Shown in pieces: positions 2,191 to 12,687 of a DNA stretch of 32,296 nucleotides (position 1 is the stretch's first letter; every line of letters starts with the position of its first letter). The stretch is from Armatimonadota bacterium. GTDB taxonomy: Bacteria > Armatimonadota > SYMT01 > JACQGL01. Below the pieces are notes generated by a model. It worked only from the letters and a program-made list of their open reading frames with translations, was not told where the DNA came from and ran no database searches. A program made the translations under genes and the position numbers. Location: assembly GCA_016199525.1 (NCBI GenBank), contig JACQGL010000150.1, forward strand, positions 1 through 32,296, given 5' to 3'.

Positions 2191-2262
2191 CGGACGGCAG
2201 GGAGGACTTGCGGGGCGACACAGCAAACGGATGTTTGAATATCGCCCGGCGTGGGTAAGTTC

Positions 2263-3138
2263 ATGGCAACACAGCAACTTGCCCCGGTGCTGCCGGTGGT
2301 CCACGCGTACGCCGATCACCGGCCCGTGCTCGACGTGAAGACGCGCTGGGAACCGCGCCGCGTGTGGTGTACCCGGACTGCCGACCACGCCGACGCGCCG
2401 GGGCAGGAGTACGTGGTCAAGTTCCGGCGTCCCGGCACCGGCACAGCTGCGCTGATCAGCGAAGTAGTCTGCCACGCGCTTCTCCAGGCGCTCGGCCTTC
2501 CAAGCCTGGTGGCCGCGCGCGTGAGTGTCGGCGAGAGGATGGCGCGCTCCTACAACGATGCCCGCACGGTGGACTACGAGGTCCTGCCCGGCTTACACTT
2601 TGGTACCGCGTGGCGACCGGATGTTCAGGCAGGTCCGCCGGAATCATGGGAGCAGCTCGCCGACCCGGAGGAGCTGGTACGGATCTGGGCGGCGGACTGC
2701 TGGCTGATGACGCCGGACCGGCGCACCTACGGTAACATATTGCTCGCGGACCCGGACAGCATGGGGCGATTCCATCTGATTCCGGCGGATCAGAGCGACT
2801 GCTTCCTGGGGTCTGGATCTCTGCAAGACGGTTCGTACACCGGACGGTCTGCCGACCACGGAGCCGCCCCGTACCTGGACCTGCTGGAGAGAGCGTTCGT
2901 GGAACGGGGATGCGTGGCTCTGCACGACATGGCGCGGCGCATCGCCGGAGCCACGGCAGCCGTTCCGACGGCGCTGAAGCGCGTTCCCGACGAATGGTGG
3001 GCCGAGGCAGAGGTGAACCAGCGTGATCTGGCAGCGTGCTTGCACGAGCGCGCTAACAGGGCACGCATCATCCTGGAGATCGAGAAGTGGGAGGGACTGG
3101 GGAATGCTACTGCAGGCGGACACCTTTTCGACCTATAG
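2263..3138 (+). CDS. HipA-like (HipA_2 family) Ser/Thr kinase-fold protein
   Basis: A short HipA-family kinase of about 291 residues from ATG 2263; an in-frame GTG at 2251 is an alternative and neither has a strong RBS. Kinase-fold signatures in order: YVVKF with Lys53 as the ATP-binding lysine; the catalytic-loop equivalent TPDRRTYGN with Asp152 and Asn158; then FHLIPADQSDCF with Asp176 as the metal-binding aspartate. The protein lacks the N-terminal HipA domain of E. coli HipA and resembles the compact HipA_2 type, which is commonly paired with a DUF3037 protein, as here: the next gene starts inside this one (35-nt overlap). It likely phosphorylates a protein target and acts as a toxin or defence component. 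Its last 11 residues, NATAGGHLFDL, recur as a fragment at 5863-5895. The family is clear; the substrate is unknown. Confidence 0.75.
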   Translation: MATQQLAPVLPVVHAYADHRPVLDVKTRWEPRRVWCTRTADHADAPGQEYVVKFRRPGTGTAALISEVVCHALLQALGLPSLVAARVSVGERMARSYNDARTVDYEVLPGLHFGTAWRPDVQAGPPESWEQLADPEELVRIWAADCWLMTPDRRTYGNILLADPDSMGRFHLIPADQSDCFLGSGSLQDGSYTGRSADHGAAPYLDLLERAFVERGCVALHDMARRIAGATAAVPTALKRVPDEWWAEAEVNQRDLAACLHERANRARIILEIEKWEGLGNATAGGHLFDL

Positions 3139-3961
3139 CTGCGCCACGCTGCGCTGCCTTGTGGACCCTACCCGGGGGATCACCGTGCCCGTCGGCGTCG
3201 TCCTGTGGAGCCGGGCCGACCGACACCCGCGGTTCCGTCTCCCCAGCGAGGGTGAGCGGATCGAGGACGTGCCGATCCAGACAGTGATGCCCTACCTGCG
3301 TGCGGCGCAGACGCAGATCGAGGCGTGGCTCCGGCGCGGCCAGCTCCCCTACCAGACCGAGCCGCTGGAATCATTGAGTGACCGGTGGTGGGAGCACGTG
3401 CGGGGGCTGATGCAGTTCACCGTGCAGATTGATCCCCCTCGGCCGGTAGACTGTGTGCGTCCCGACGAAGAGATGGAGACGCTCTTCGAGGCACTCGTGC
3501 AACCGGTGAAGACGGCCCGCGAGCGCGCGCAGCGGATCGATGGCGCTGTCAAGGCTGCCCTCGGTCGGCAGTACGTGACCAGGTTCAAGCGCCAGCAACG
3601 TGCGCCGGGGTTCAGGGGCAGGCCGGTCTCCGTCCTGCGCATGGCGGAGGGCCGGAACGCAGTGGTGGTCGTAGAGGCGGTGAATCTGGCCCTCAAGACG
3701 GCGGAGCGGGATTCAGACACGCTGGCGAGCAGGCTGCGGCGCATCCAGGAGAACAGCACGAAGCGGAAGGTTCGCTTGGTATTGGGGTATCTCGCTTCTC
3801 CTGGGGGCCTCAACGGAGAGGGTGTACTCAAGGACTGGATCGAGCACGTCACCAACACGCCGATGTACGACCTGACGCGGCAGTCCGCCGAGTTCCGTAG
3901 GACCGCCGCAGAGGCTCTGGCGGAGGCCGAGGACTCTCTCGGTGTCCTTGCCGAAGGGTAG
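3104..3961 (+). CDS. DUF3037 family protein, partner of the HipA-like kinase
   Basis: About 285 residues from ATG 3104, chosen because it has a good purine-rich RBS (GGGAGGGACTGGGGA) and gives the family-typical N-terminus. The frame is open further upstream, but that part only shadows the kinase gene. TFSTYSCATLRCLVDPTRGITVPVGVVLW matches the DUF3037 pattern of a tyrosine-rich strand, an arginine and a V-P-V-G-V-V-L strand. The middle (ETLFEALVQPVKTARERAQRI) and C-terminus (SADRWW... to EALAEAEDSLGVLAEG) are helical. It overlaps the kinase gene by 35 nt, so the two are translationally coupled and probably work together, perhaps as antidote or adaptor, although the biochemical role of DUF3037 is not established. 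It ends 65 nt before the AlbA_2 gene. Confidence 0.7.
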   Translation: MLLQADTFSTYSCATLRCLVDPTRGITVPVGVVLWSRADRHPRFRLPSEGERIEDVPIQTVMPYLRAAQTQIEAWLRRGQLPYQTEPLESLSDRWWEHVRGLMQFTVQIDPPRPVDCVRPDEEMETLFEALVQPVKTARERAQRIDGAVKAALGRQYVTRFKRQQRAPGFRGRPVSVLRMAEGRNAVVVVEAVNLALKTAERDSDTLASRLRRIQENSTKRKVRLVLGYLASPGGLNGEGVLKDWIEHVTNTPMYDLTRQSAEFRRTAAEALAEAEDSLGVLAEG

Positions 3962-4026: not shown

Positions 4027-5678
4027 ATGAACCGCTCGATCCCCAAGCGTGAGAGCCTGACGGTGGAGTTGAAGAGCGACCAGGGGCCACTGCCGGACTC
4101 GGAGCTGGTCGCTGCCGTCGTTTGCCTTGCCAACACAGAAGGCGGCGATGTGTACGTCGGCGTTGAGAATGACGGGGCGGTGACGGGCCTCCACCCCAAG
4201 CACCGCAACGTAACGGGCGTGGTGGCATTGATCGCCAACCGCACCAGCCCATCTCTTTCGGTGCGCGCCGAACTCCTGGAGGTGAGCGGCCTGCCCGTGG
4301 CACGCATCCAGGTGCCCAAAGCGGAGTCCATCGTCTCCACGTCTGACGGATTGATCCAGCGCCGTCGCCTCGCTGCCGATGGCACGCCTTTCTGCGCGCC
4401 ATTCTACCCGCACGAGTTCGCTCAGCGGCAATCAGACCTCCGCCGCCTGGACTACTCGGCTCTGCCCGTCGTGGGCGCTGCCGCTGACGACCTGGACCCG
4501 CTGGAACGCGAGCGGCTCCGGCAACTCGTGGGCCGGTACGGGGGTGACAGCGCCCTGCTGGTGTTGAGCGACGGTGAACTCGATGGCGCGCTTGGCTTCG
4601 TGACCCGGGAGGGAGACCGCCGTGTACCGACCGTCGCGGGACTGCTCACCATCGGCCGCGAGTCGGCGCTGCGGAAGCATCTCCCGACCCACGAGGTGGC
4701 GATCCAGGACCTTTCGGGGACCCAGGTCCGTCTCAACGAGTTCACCCGCAGGCCGTTGCTGGCGGTGTTCCAGCACATTTACGAGCAGCACTTTGCAGCC
4801 CGCGTGGTCGAGGATGAGTTGCAGGTCGGCATGTTCCGTGTGCCTGTCCCCAACTATGACCGGCGTGCGTTCCGCGAGGGCCTCGTCAACGCCCTGGTTC
4901 ACCGCGATTACGCCCGCCTGGGCGCTGTCCACGTGCGCTGGGAGGCAGACGGCCTGATTATCAGCAACCCTGGTGGGTTCGTGGAGGGGTGACGCTGGAC
5001 AACCTCCTCGTCACGGAACCGCGCCCCCGGAACCCGATGCTTGCGGACATTGCGAAGCGGGTCGGCCTGGCGGAACGGACAGGGCGCGGTGTGGATCTGA
5101 TCTACCAGGGCCTGCTGCGCTACGGACGGCCTGCCCCCGATTACAGCCGGAGCGATGCTACCAGCGTGGTGCTGCGGCTCCCCAATGCTGACGCTGACCT
5201 GCCGTTCCTGGAGTTGATCCTGGAGGAGGAGCGCCGCATCGGTGCTCCCATGCCGGTCGATACCCTGATCGCCTTGGCCCACCTCCGCATGGCGGCACGC
5301 TTGGACGCCGCCGCCCTGTCTCGTGCGCTCCAGAGGGACGAGGCCGCGACGCGCGCCCTGCTCGGTCGGCTGACGGCGGCGGGCCTGGTCCAGGCGCACG
5401 GGGCGACACGCAATCGCGAGTACAGCTTGAGTGCGGCGGTCTACCGACGGCTCGGAGAAGCAGCGGATTACATCCGGCAGGCTGCTTTCGATGAGATCCA
5501 ACAGGAGCAGATGGTTCTCCAGTACGTCCAGCGGCACGGGCGGATTACACGGCGGGAGGTTGCAGGTCTGTGCCTGCTAGGGTCGTTCCAGGCCAGCCGC
5601 CTCCTGAAGCGTCTGGTTGCCGAGGGCAAACTCAAACTGCACGGCGAGAGGCGGGGCGCCTATTACACGCGCCCATAG
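4027..5678 (+). CDS. AlbA_2 / GHKL-type ATPase / winged-helix regulator (apparent frameshift)
   Basis: Two overlapping frames together encode a normal-length (about 550 residue) Schlafen-AlbA_2 ATP-binding regulator. The first (4027-4992) holds the AlbA_2 domain (ESLTVELKSD, LANTEGGDVYVGVENDG, IPKA-type strands) and the start of the HATPase_c_4 region (REGLVNALVHRDYA, LIISNPGGFVEG). The continuation from 4989 begins VTLDNLL and contains RNPMLADIAKRVGLAERTGRGVD, normally contiguous with NPGGFVEG, then a C-terminal winged helix (YVQRHGRITRREVAGLC...LKLHGERRGAYYTRP). At 4986-4989 the G run is one short, giving GAG GGG TGA instead of GAG GGG GTG. Members of this family are usually transcriptional regulators; the dyad pair just after its stop is a candidate target. 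Whether the break is a sequencing error, a mutation or a -1 slip on GGG before a stop cannot be told. Confidence 0.75.
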
Positions 5679-5684
5679 CGCGAA

Positions 5685-5718
5685 ATGAGCGCGCTCATAA
5701 CCAGAATGAGCGCGCTCA
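5685..5718. promoter_or_regulatory. Pair of perfect dyads (TGAGCGCGCTCA) 21 bp apart, candidate operators
   Basis: ATGAGCGCGCTCAT at 5685-5698 is a 14-bp perfect palindrome. TGAGCGCGCTCA recurs at 5707-5718. The offset is exactly 21 bp, two helical turns, so two dimers would sit on the same face. The array begins 6 nt after the AlbA_2 stop and 340 nt before the helicase start. It could bind the winged-helix protein encoded just upstream. Read as protein, it would repeat MSAL every 7 codons, but no coding support exists. Confidence 0.6.
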
Positions 5719-5747
5719 ATAGATATGGGCGCCGCGCGGGTCGCACC

Positions 5748-5775
5748 CTGACAGTTCCTATCGTCGATATATATG
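5748..5775 (+). promoter_or_regulatory. Weak candidate promoter between the two dyad arrays
   Basis: CTGACA (5748-5753) is followed after 16 bp by TATATG (5770-5775) within an AT-rich ATATATAT tract. It points at the helicase gene and lies between the two candidate operator arrays. The match to the consensus is modest. Confidence 0.3.
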
Positions 5776-5860
5776 CGCGCGACCTATGGTCATGGGTGCG
5801 TAGAGGATCTGGGGATCCAGATAGCGAACGAGCGTTTGGGGTCGCCCTGGGAGGAGCCGC

Positions 5861-5932
5861 CGAATGCAACCGCAGGTAGACACCTCTTCGACCTGTGGTG
5901 GGGGACGAGGAGCCTACTACACAGCGCCCTAA
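5861..5932 (+). pseudogene. Fused remnant: HipA-type tail joined to AlbA_2-type tail
   Basis: Bases 5861-5898 match the 3' end of the HipA-like gene (3101-3138) at 30 of 38 positions. In the kinase frame they read NATAGRHLFDL against NATAGGHLFDL, with all but one sense difference at silent third positions and the stop TAG changed to TGG. Directly after, 5903-5932 read GRGAYYTAP-stop, matching the end of the AlbA_2 regulator (RRGAYYTRP-stop at 5652-5678), again with nearly all differences silent. The simplest reading is a second, diverged HipA-DUF3037-AlbA_2 cassette that collapsed by an internal deletion. The fragment is short, so chance cannot be fully excluded. Confidence 0.5.
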
Positions 5933-5939
5933 ACACACA

Positions 5940-5998
5940 AAACACGCGCGCATGTTTCAGAAACACGCGCACGTGTTTCTTTCTATCCGCGCGTGTTT
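5940..5998. promoter_or_regulatory. Second dyad array (AAACACG...CGTGTTT), 21-bp period, candidate operators
   Basis: Two units start at 5940 and 5961, exactly 21 bp apart: AAACACGCGCGCATGTTT and AAACACGCGCACGTGTTT. Each is an inverted repeat of AAACACG with a short centre. A third right half-site CGTGTTT lies at 5992-5998. The array follows the second AlbA_2-type tail (stop at 5930-5932), just as the first array follows the intact tail, and precedes the helicase start by about 60 nt, so it could control helicase expression. Confidence 0.55.
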
Positions 5999-6058
5999 TG
6001 CCGCCCGAAGACGACGGAAATCCAGAGCCGGGTTGTTACTCGGGAGGCGAGCGAGACC

Positions 6059-11215
<5,157 letters not shown>

Positions 11216-12451: not shown

Positions 12452-12581
12452 GGTTGCAACCATTTTGCAACCCAACTCGGTTGCAGAGGATTCACGGCGA
12501 TTGCAGAGGATTACATGAAGGGGCGCGATTCAAGGCTGTGGATGGGGCGCTTTTGTAGGCGATTACAGGGGATTGTAGGGG
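12452..12581 (+). repeat. Cluster of direct repeats beside attR, candidate integrase arm-type sites
   Basis: TTGCAGAGGATT occurs at 12481-12492 and 12501-12512, 20 bp apart. A variant TTACAGGGGATT is at 12563-12574, and related TTGCAACC/TTGCAACCC are at 12454 and 12465. They lie on the inner side of the tRNA fragment, where tyrosine recombinases usually have arm-binding sites. Role is inferred from position only. Confidence 0.45.
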
Positions 12582-12586
12582 TCCCC

Positions 12587-12643
12587 TCGGTCTCAAAAAC
12601 CGGTTCCCGCGAGGGAGTGCGGGTTCGACCCCCGCCTTCGGCA
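12587..12643 (+). other. 3' fragment of tRNA-Leu(CAA): attR of the integrated island
   Basis: From 12587 the sequence forms an anticodon stem TCGGT/ACCGG with loop CTCAAAA (anticodon CAA, 12594-12596), a class II variable arm (TTCCC-GCGA-GGGA), a T-arm GCGGG-TTCGACC-CCCGC (12619-12635) and the acceptor 3' strand CTTCGGC with discriminator A at 12643. The 5' half (GCCGAAG... D-arm) is absent upstream; instead there is repeat-rich DNA. This is what remains at the distal end after integration into a tRNA-Leu gene on the + strand. The intact tRNA should be left of the window. Confidence 0.8.
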
Positions 12644-12687
12644 TCACAGAAAACGTGCGCAAGCGTCTGTTAGAAAACAGCGTTAGA

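Follow-up and report, generated by a model that had tools for sequence, protein, structure and literature searches.

A probable remnant of a second HipA-DUF3037-AlbA_2 cassette, with its own operator-like array, in an armatimonadotal defence island

The window, a contig of 32,296 nt from an Armatimonadota bacterium (JACQGL010000150.1, assembly GCA_016199525.1), carries a defence island in which a HipA_2-like kinase gene, a DUF3037 gene and a gene for an AlbA_2-HATPase-winged-helix protein precede a gene for a DruE-like helicase (Table 1). The HipA-like kinase gene is adjacent to the DUF3037 gene, the arrangement that characterizes HipAD and PDC-M66. The intact AlbA_2 gene encodes all three parts of the family architecture, AlbA_2, HATPase_c_4 and a C-terminal winged helix, but a frameshift near 4989 (4981-4992) splits it between the AlbA_2 and HATPase halves into ORFs 4027-4992 and 4989-5678. 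The homologous gene in relatives is usually one ORF of about 550-600 codons (approximately 565), and the frameshift may be either real decay or an assembly error. Upstream of the trio is a TIR-domain gene (1093-1752) with weak matches to the ThsB model of Thoeris and the ThcB4 model of type III Thoeris, followed by an ORF (1765-2190) that matched no family. A tRNA-Leu (CAA) gene at 12564-12645, just past the helicase end of the island, is a possible integration site.

Table 1. Coordinates of the intact cassette, the remnant, the palindrome arrays and the helicase gene in the window
Feature	Positions	Strand	Basis or remark
HipA_2-like kinase gene, intact copy	2251..3138	+	Pfam PF20613, E 1.4e-9; HMM built without it, E 5e-17
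DUF3037 gene, intact copy; ATG and RBS inside the HipA tail	3104..3961	+	Pfam PF11236, E 6e-5; phylum-wide family search; start inferred from sequence
AlbA_2-HATPase_c_4-winged-helix gene, intact copy, in two ORFs	4027..5678	+	SLFN_AlbA_2, E 2.8e-13; HATPase_c_4, E 1.5e-8
Operator-like array behind the intact gene: pair of TGAGCGCGCTCA palindromes spaced 21 bp	5685..5719		Begins 7 nt past the stop
Remnant HipA' 3' end, also RBS and first DUF3037' codons	5848..5894	+	Match to 3088-3134
In-frame fusion ORF, DUF3037' start and AlbA_2' end, MQPQVDTSSTCGGGRGAYYTAP and stop	5864..5932	+	Putative deletion product
Remnant AlbA_2' 3' end and stop, encoding the wing of the final winged helix	5896..5932	+	Gene tails, family motif, predicted structure of a relative
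Putative orphan operator-like array of the lost gene: AAACACGCGCGCATGTTT and AAACACGCGCACGTGTTT, 21 bp apart, half site 5990-5999	5940..6000
DruE-like DEAD/DEAH helicase gene, presumed regulated gene	6059..11215	+	PADLOC DruE1, 5.5e-108; Pfam DEAD, Helicase_C, MZB

The intergenic region between the intact AlbA_2 gene and the helicase gene (5679-6058) repeats the ends of two genes of the trio. When the 384-nt intergenic sequence was compared with the window by blastn, 5848-5894 matched the end of the HipA-like gene over 47 nt with 78.7% identity (E 5e-7), and the local score of 27 was reached by none of 2000 dinucleotide shuffles, the maximum of which was 15. The AlbA_2 part is weaker when taken alone, its local score of 15 being reached by 4 of 2000 such shuffles. 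However, 5895-5936 was also compared with 912 gene tails, drawn from open frames of at least 250 codons in all six frames from all loci compared: the top three distinct ones were all AlbA_2 tails, those of L072 from the cyanobacterium Leptolyngbya (score 19) and, at 14 each, of L068 and the window's own gene. The best match is thus to a cyanobacterial relative, above the neighbouring intact copy, and the remnant peptide fits the family tail motif GxxRGAxY. An earlier note on this DNA, made from the letters alone, had described both repeated ends, and these comparisons confirm them. It had overlooked that the repeated HipA tail doubles as the RBS and start of a DUF3037 gene. The DUF3037 ATG lies inside the HipA tail in both copies, at 3104 in the intact one and at 5864 in the remnant, which keeps about 11 DUF3037 codons. 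HipA tail with DUF3037 head, followed by AlbA_2 tail, is the order of the intact trio. The two parts are joined in frame; behind the RBS GGGAGGAG, the ATG opens a fusion of 22 codons that ends at the AlbA_2 stop, 5930-5932.

The differences between the two copies were said in the note to fall almost only on silent codon positions. This holds for the last 11 HipA codons, where five of six changed codons are silent, and for the last nine AlbA_2 codons, where six of seven are, stop included. It does not hold for the five codons by which the HipA match extends upstream, three of which change the amino acid (WEGLGN vs WEEPPN). Read in the DUF3037 frame, the same bases show changes most of which alter the amino acid (MLLQADTFSTY vs MQPQVDTSSTC), which makes the HipA frame the conserved one. 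The silent terminal changes indicate that what was lost had been a coding paralogue, already diverged, and a palindrome array of its own, which begins 8 nt past the remnant AlbA_2 stop, backs this independently. A second, diverged cassette with its own operator-like sites is well supported by these sequence features. Against this, the 5' part of HipA' is absent: no clear similarity to any gene of the trio (HipA, DUF3037, AlbA_2) was seen in 5719-5850, so that at least two events would be needed to produce the present arrangement.

It was further proposed in the note that the trio moves as a unit, and here the comparison with relatives speaks against it. HMM searches of 84 AlbA_2 loci (80 in genomes and four viral) detected neither HipA_2 nor DUF3037 even at E<=1, and the same models recover the window's own HipA_2 (E 5e-17) and DUF3037 (E 1.6e-9) if built without those two copies. 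No AlbA_2 gene was found within 1.5 kb of the DUF3037 loci of the phylum. The trio is consequently not a travelling unit in this sample, and a search for islands with two intact trios found none. The tail peptides mark the cassette in part only: tails of the GxxRGAYY type are general in the AlbA_2 family, where they occur without HipA or DUF3037. Close relatives of the window's HipA were absent from 101 related genomes, genome contigs and plasmids. In viral contigs the window's own AlbA_2 protein had no match, and the AlbA_2 alignment used as query had four distant ones. The genes downstream of AlbA_2 relatives are often defence genes, the commonest matches among 53 downstream proteins scanned being PglX or type IIG-like (15 of 53), PglZ (8 to 9 of 53) and N6 methylase, with HsdM and others besides.

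A feature that the remnant does share with the family is what lies behind it. Palindromes stand directly behind AlbA_2-HATPase-winged-helix genes in many phyla, before defence genes such as PglX, PglZ and HsdM. Among 65 dereplicated loci, the 80 nt past the AlbA_2 stop contained a palindrome in 54% at p<=0.05 and in 31% at p<=0.01, compared with 6.4% and 1.6% of 250 control stops from the same loci. The palindromes often have no spacer, and sites of the same class lie 20-22 bp apart in 22 loci, the distance being 21 in both arrays of the window. A repeat-count statistic on 200 nt, which is blunt, was also enriched (30% vs 6% at p<=0.05). Class consensus patterns were written after the loci had been inspected, and their count of 63 of 77 is descriptive only; the palindrome enrichment in 80 nt is the unbiased test.

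The half-site of these arrays tracks the similarity of the recognition helix (partial Mantel r 0.19, p 0.005, 39 loci), with 11 residues compared with the half-sites and with overall protein identity and GC removed. Three DNA regions and two peptides used as controls gave no correlation. This half-site comparison with a GC covariate replaced a 6-mer Mantel test, which lost its place as main evidence when control regions proved to correlate as well. In an AlphaFold2 model of the L064 protein (pLDDT 87) the 11-residue segment corresponds to helix 519-531 of the last winged helix, and the conserved GxGRGAxY is its wing. The ghost shuffles, the palindrome enrichment over control stops, the half-site Mantel test and the gene-tail comparison are the tests that bear the weight of our argument. 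In the open papers searched we did not find a description of arrays behind AlbA_2 or Schlafen-type genes with a match between helix and operator.

The two arrays of the window belong to different classes. The array nearest to that of the intact gene is the one in L065, whose protein likewise carries an almost identical recognition helix (GEFQASRLLKR vs GSFQASRLLKR). The array behind the remnant consists of AAACACGCGC..GTGTTT, twice, and is situated 80 bp before the helicase start. The remnant copy thus ends as members of the family do, with the wing motif GxxRGAxY and a stop followed by a palindrome array. Its own recognition helix has been deleted, and the match to the array is left to family comparison: elsewhere, loci with the GxGRG tail type tend to have a AAACACGC-type array (Fisher p 3e-4), and an array of the same type lies behind the remnant. 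The assembled genome has no further copy of the remnant's sites, and its other two AlbA_2-like genes have different repeats behind them, so that the array appears to be orphaned as far as an 88%-complete genome shows. An extra ATGAGCGCGCTCA on contig C4 was taken as chance, being apparently within coding sequence. A third, distant AlbA_2-like gene of this genome (L052, contig C199) is also split in two frames and is followed by direct repeats of the type TTTGACGCAAG in place of palindromes.

We consider it probable that an internal deletion in a second HipA-DUF3037-AlbA_2 cassette left this segment as its scar, that the operator array of the lost regulator remains, and that the locus records regulator turnover. 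The sequences themselves show both tails and their in-frame join, the two arrays, the family-wide position of such arrays and the correlation of helix with operator; beyond that, we infer the following course. Two toxin-antitoxin-plus-regulator cassettes would once have stood in tandem, the second between the present cassette and the DruE-like helicase gene. A deletion would have brought roughly codon 12 of DUF3037' up against roughly the tenth-last codon of AlbA_2', and the 5' part of HipA' would have been lost as well. With the cassette nearer the helicase removed, its operators, beside the helicase gene, would have been left orphaned. The AlbA_2-HATPase-winged-helix proteins would be dimeric, ATP-sensing regulators, each of which binds the palindrome pair directly behind its own gene and so switches the defence operon that follows. 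Each regulator would have an operator sequence of its own, dictated by the recognition helix in its terminal winged helix; it is the correlation of helix and half-site that suggests AlbA_2 as a regulator of the adjacent defence operon. One regulator-plus-toxin-antitoxin module would have superseded another at the locus.

The most serious alternative, albeit an unlikely one, accepts the segment as a gene remnant and has the palindrome arrays act as RNA, in the form of hairpins, terminators or substrates of the Schlafen RNase domain, rather than as operators. In its favour, the motif E-x4-E-F-K is invariant in the AlbA_2 domain (E9, E14), the solved structures closest to the L064 model are 3lmm (uncharacterised, of the same architecture) and then Schlafen RNase domains, and one stem, at 5979-5939 on the minus strand, resembles a terminator. 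However, the coding strand has no terminator-like site, and palindromes that are often spacerless, lie two helical turns apart and vary in sequence with the recognition helix of a winged helix point to DNA as the ligand. The intact RBS, start and frame would also suit a fusion that has been kept in function, as leader peptide or as attenuator of the helicase gene, and is not mere debris. We regard this as improbable, since an in-frame join is expected once in three by chance, none of the relatives examined has such a leader, and the changes in the DUF3037 frame of the fusion are mostly non-silent. Still less probable is an assembly chimera of related strains. The contig is metagenome-derived, from an assembly of 266 contigs that is 88% complete, and the intact AlbA_2 gene is also frameshifted; but the remnant differs silently from the intact copy in 5 of 11 HipA codons and 6 of 9 AlbA_2 codons, more than strain mixing would explain, a chimera would take two joins inside some 90 bp, and an array of another class stands at the right place behind the remnant. 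Similarity by mere chance, the intergenic region being GC-rich, which the shuffles of the AlbA_2 part alone might suggest, can be set aside because the HipA part is far past chance, the AlbA_2 tails beat some 900 others and an array follows.

The scar of a deleted cassette can be compared with several known systems. HipA and DUF3037 form an experimentally supported defence toxin-antitoxin pair (DS-6/HipAD, PDC-M66; PMC13092281, PMC12548924), which the window resembles in having a HipA-like kinase gene beside a DUF3037 gene in a defence island. The published systems are two-gene units, whereas here an AlbA_2 regulator-like gene follows, and the window's proteins are distant from them and matched no PADLOC model. 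The similarity to Druantia lies in the downstream gene and its DruE1 match; no other Druantia genes were identified among the island genes assigned by the searches run. BrxR/CapW WYL regulators, of a family that co-localizes with diverse defence systems (PMC9122589, PMC9122601), and RptR, which binds repeated palindromes upstream of its own gene (PMC12255303), are likewise encoded beside defence operons. They belong to unrelated protein families, and in the window the sites are directly behind the regulator gene; RptR was rejected as a member of the same family.

A recent study treats the AlbA_2 family itself as Schlafen RNases, with a link to BREX in at least 1017 taxa, and casts them as backup suicidal RNases (PMC12839542), which weighs against a regulatory reading. 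Those Schlafen RNase-minimal histidine kinase-winged-helix proteins have the same domain order as the window's gene, and relatives of the latter adjoin PglX and PglZ. In contrast to the suicidal role, the operator-like arrays 3' of the genes and the correlation of helix with operator point to regulation; the invariant E-x4-E motif leaves room for an RNase role in addition. On balance, and with less assurance than for the deletion scar, we favour the view that the widespread Schlafen-like AlbA_2-HATPase-winged-helix proteins encoded in BREX, restriction and other defence loci may not be, or not only be, suicide RNases but self-contained, orthogonal switches, with an operator pair behind each gene, specificity vested in one helix, and replacement that leaves behind orphan operators and gene-tail fossils. 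If this is so, the family would provide a set of orthogonal regulator-operator pairs, and its role in BREX and related systems would be directly testable. The switching-on of defence islands is poorly known, and this defence locus would illustrate clearly how one regulatory toxin-antitoxin module takes the place of another.

Other loci also have more than one class of array. In L080, L103, L113, L134 and L135 a second array of another class follows the first at a distance of some tens of nt up to 200 nt, with no gene tail, and it is possible that these second arrays are orphan operators of earlier regulators. No gene-tail ghosts were seen in these loci or in L142, which likewise has two classes. 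More than one class per locus, as in L080, L103 and L134, fits repeated replacement of the regulator, but could also mean that several regulators act on one promoter. CTATCGTCG occurs once at 5758-5766, between the window's two arrays; it is the half-site of the array behind another AlbA_2-like gene of the same genome (L051, contig C49).
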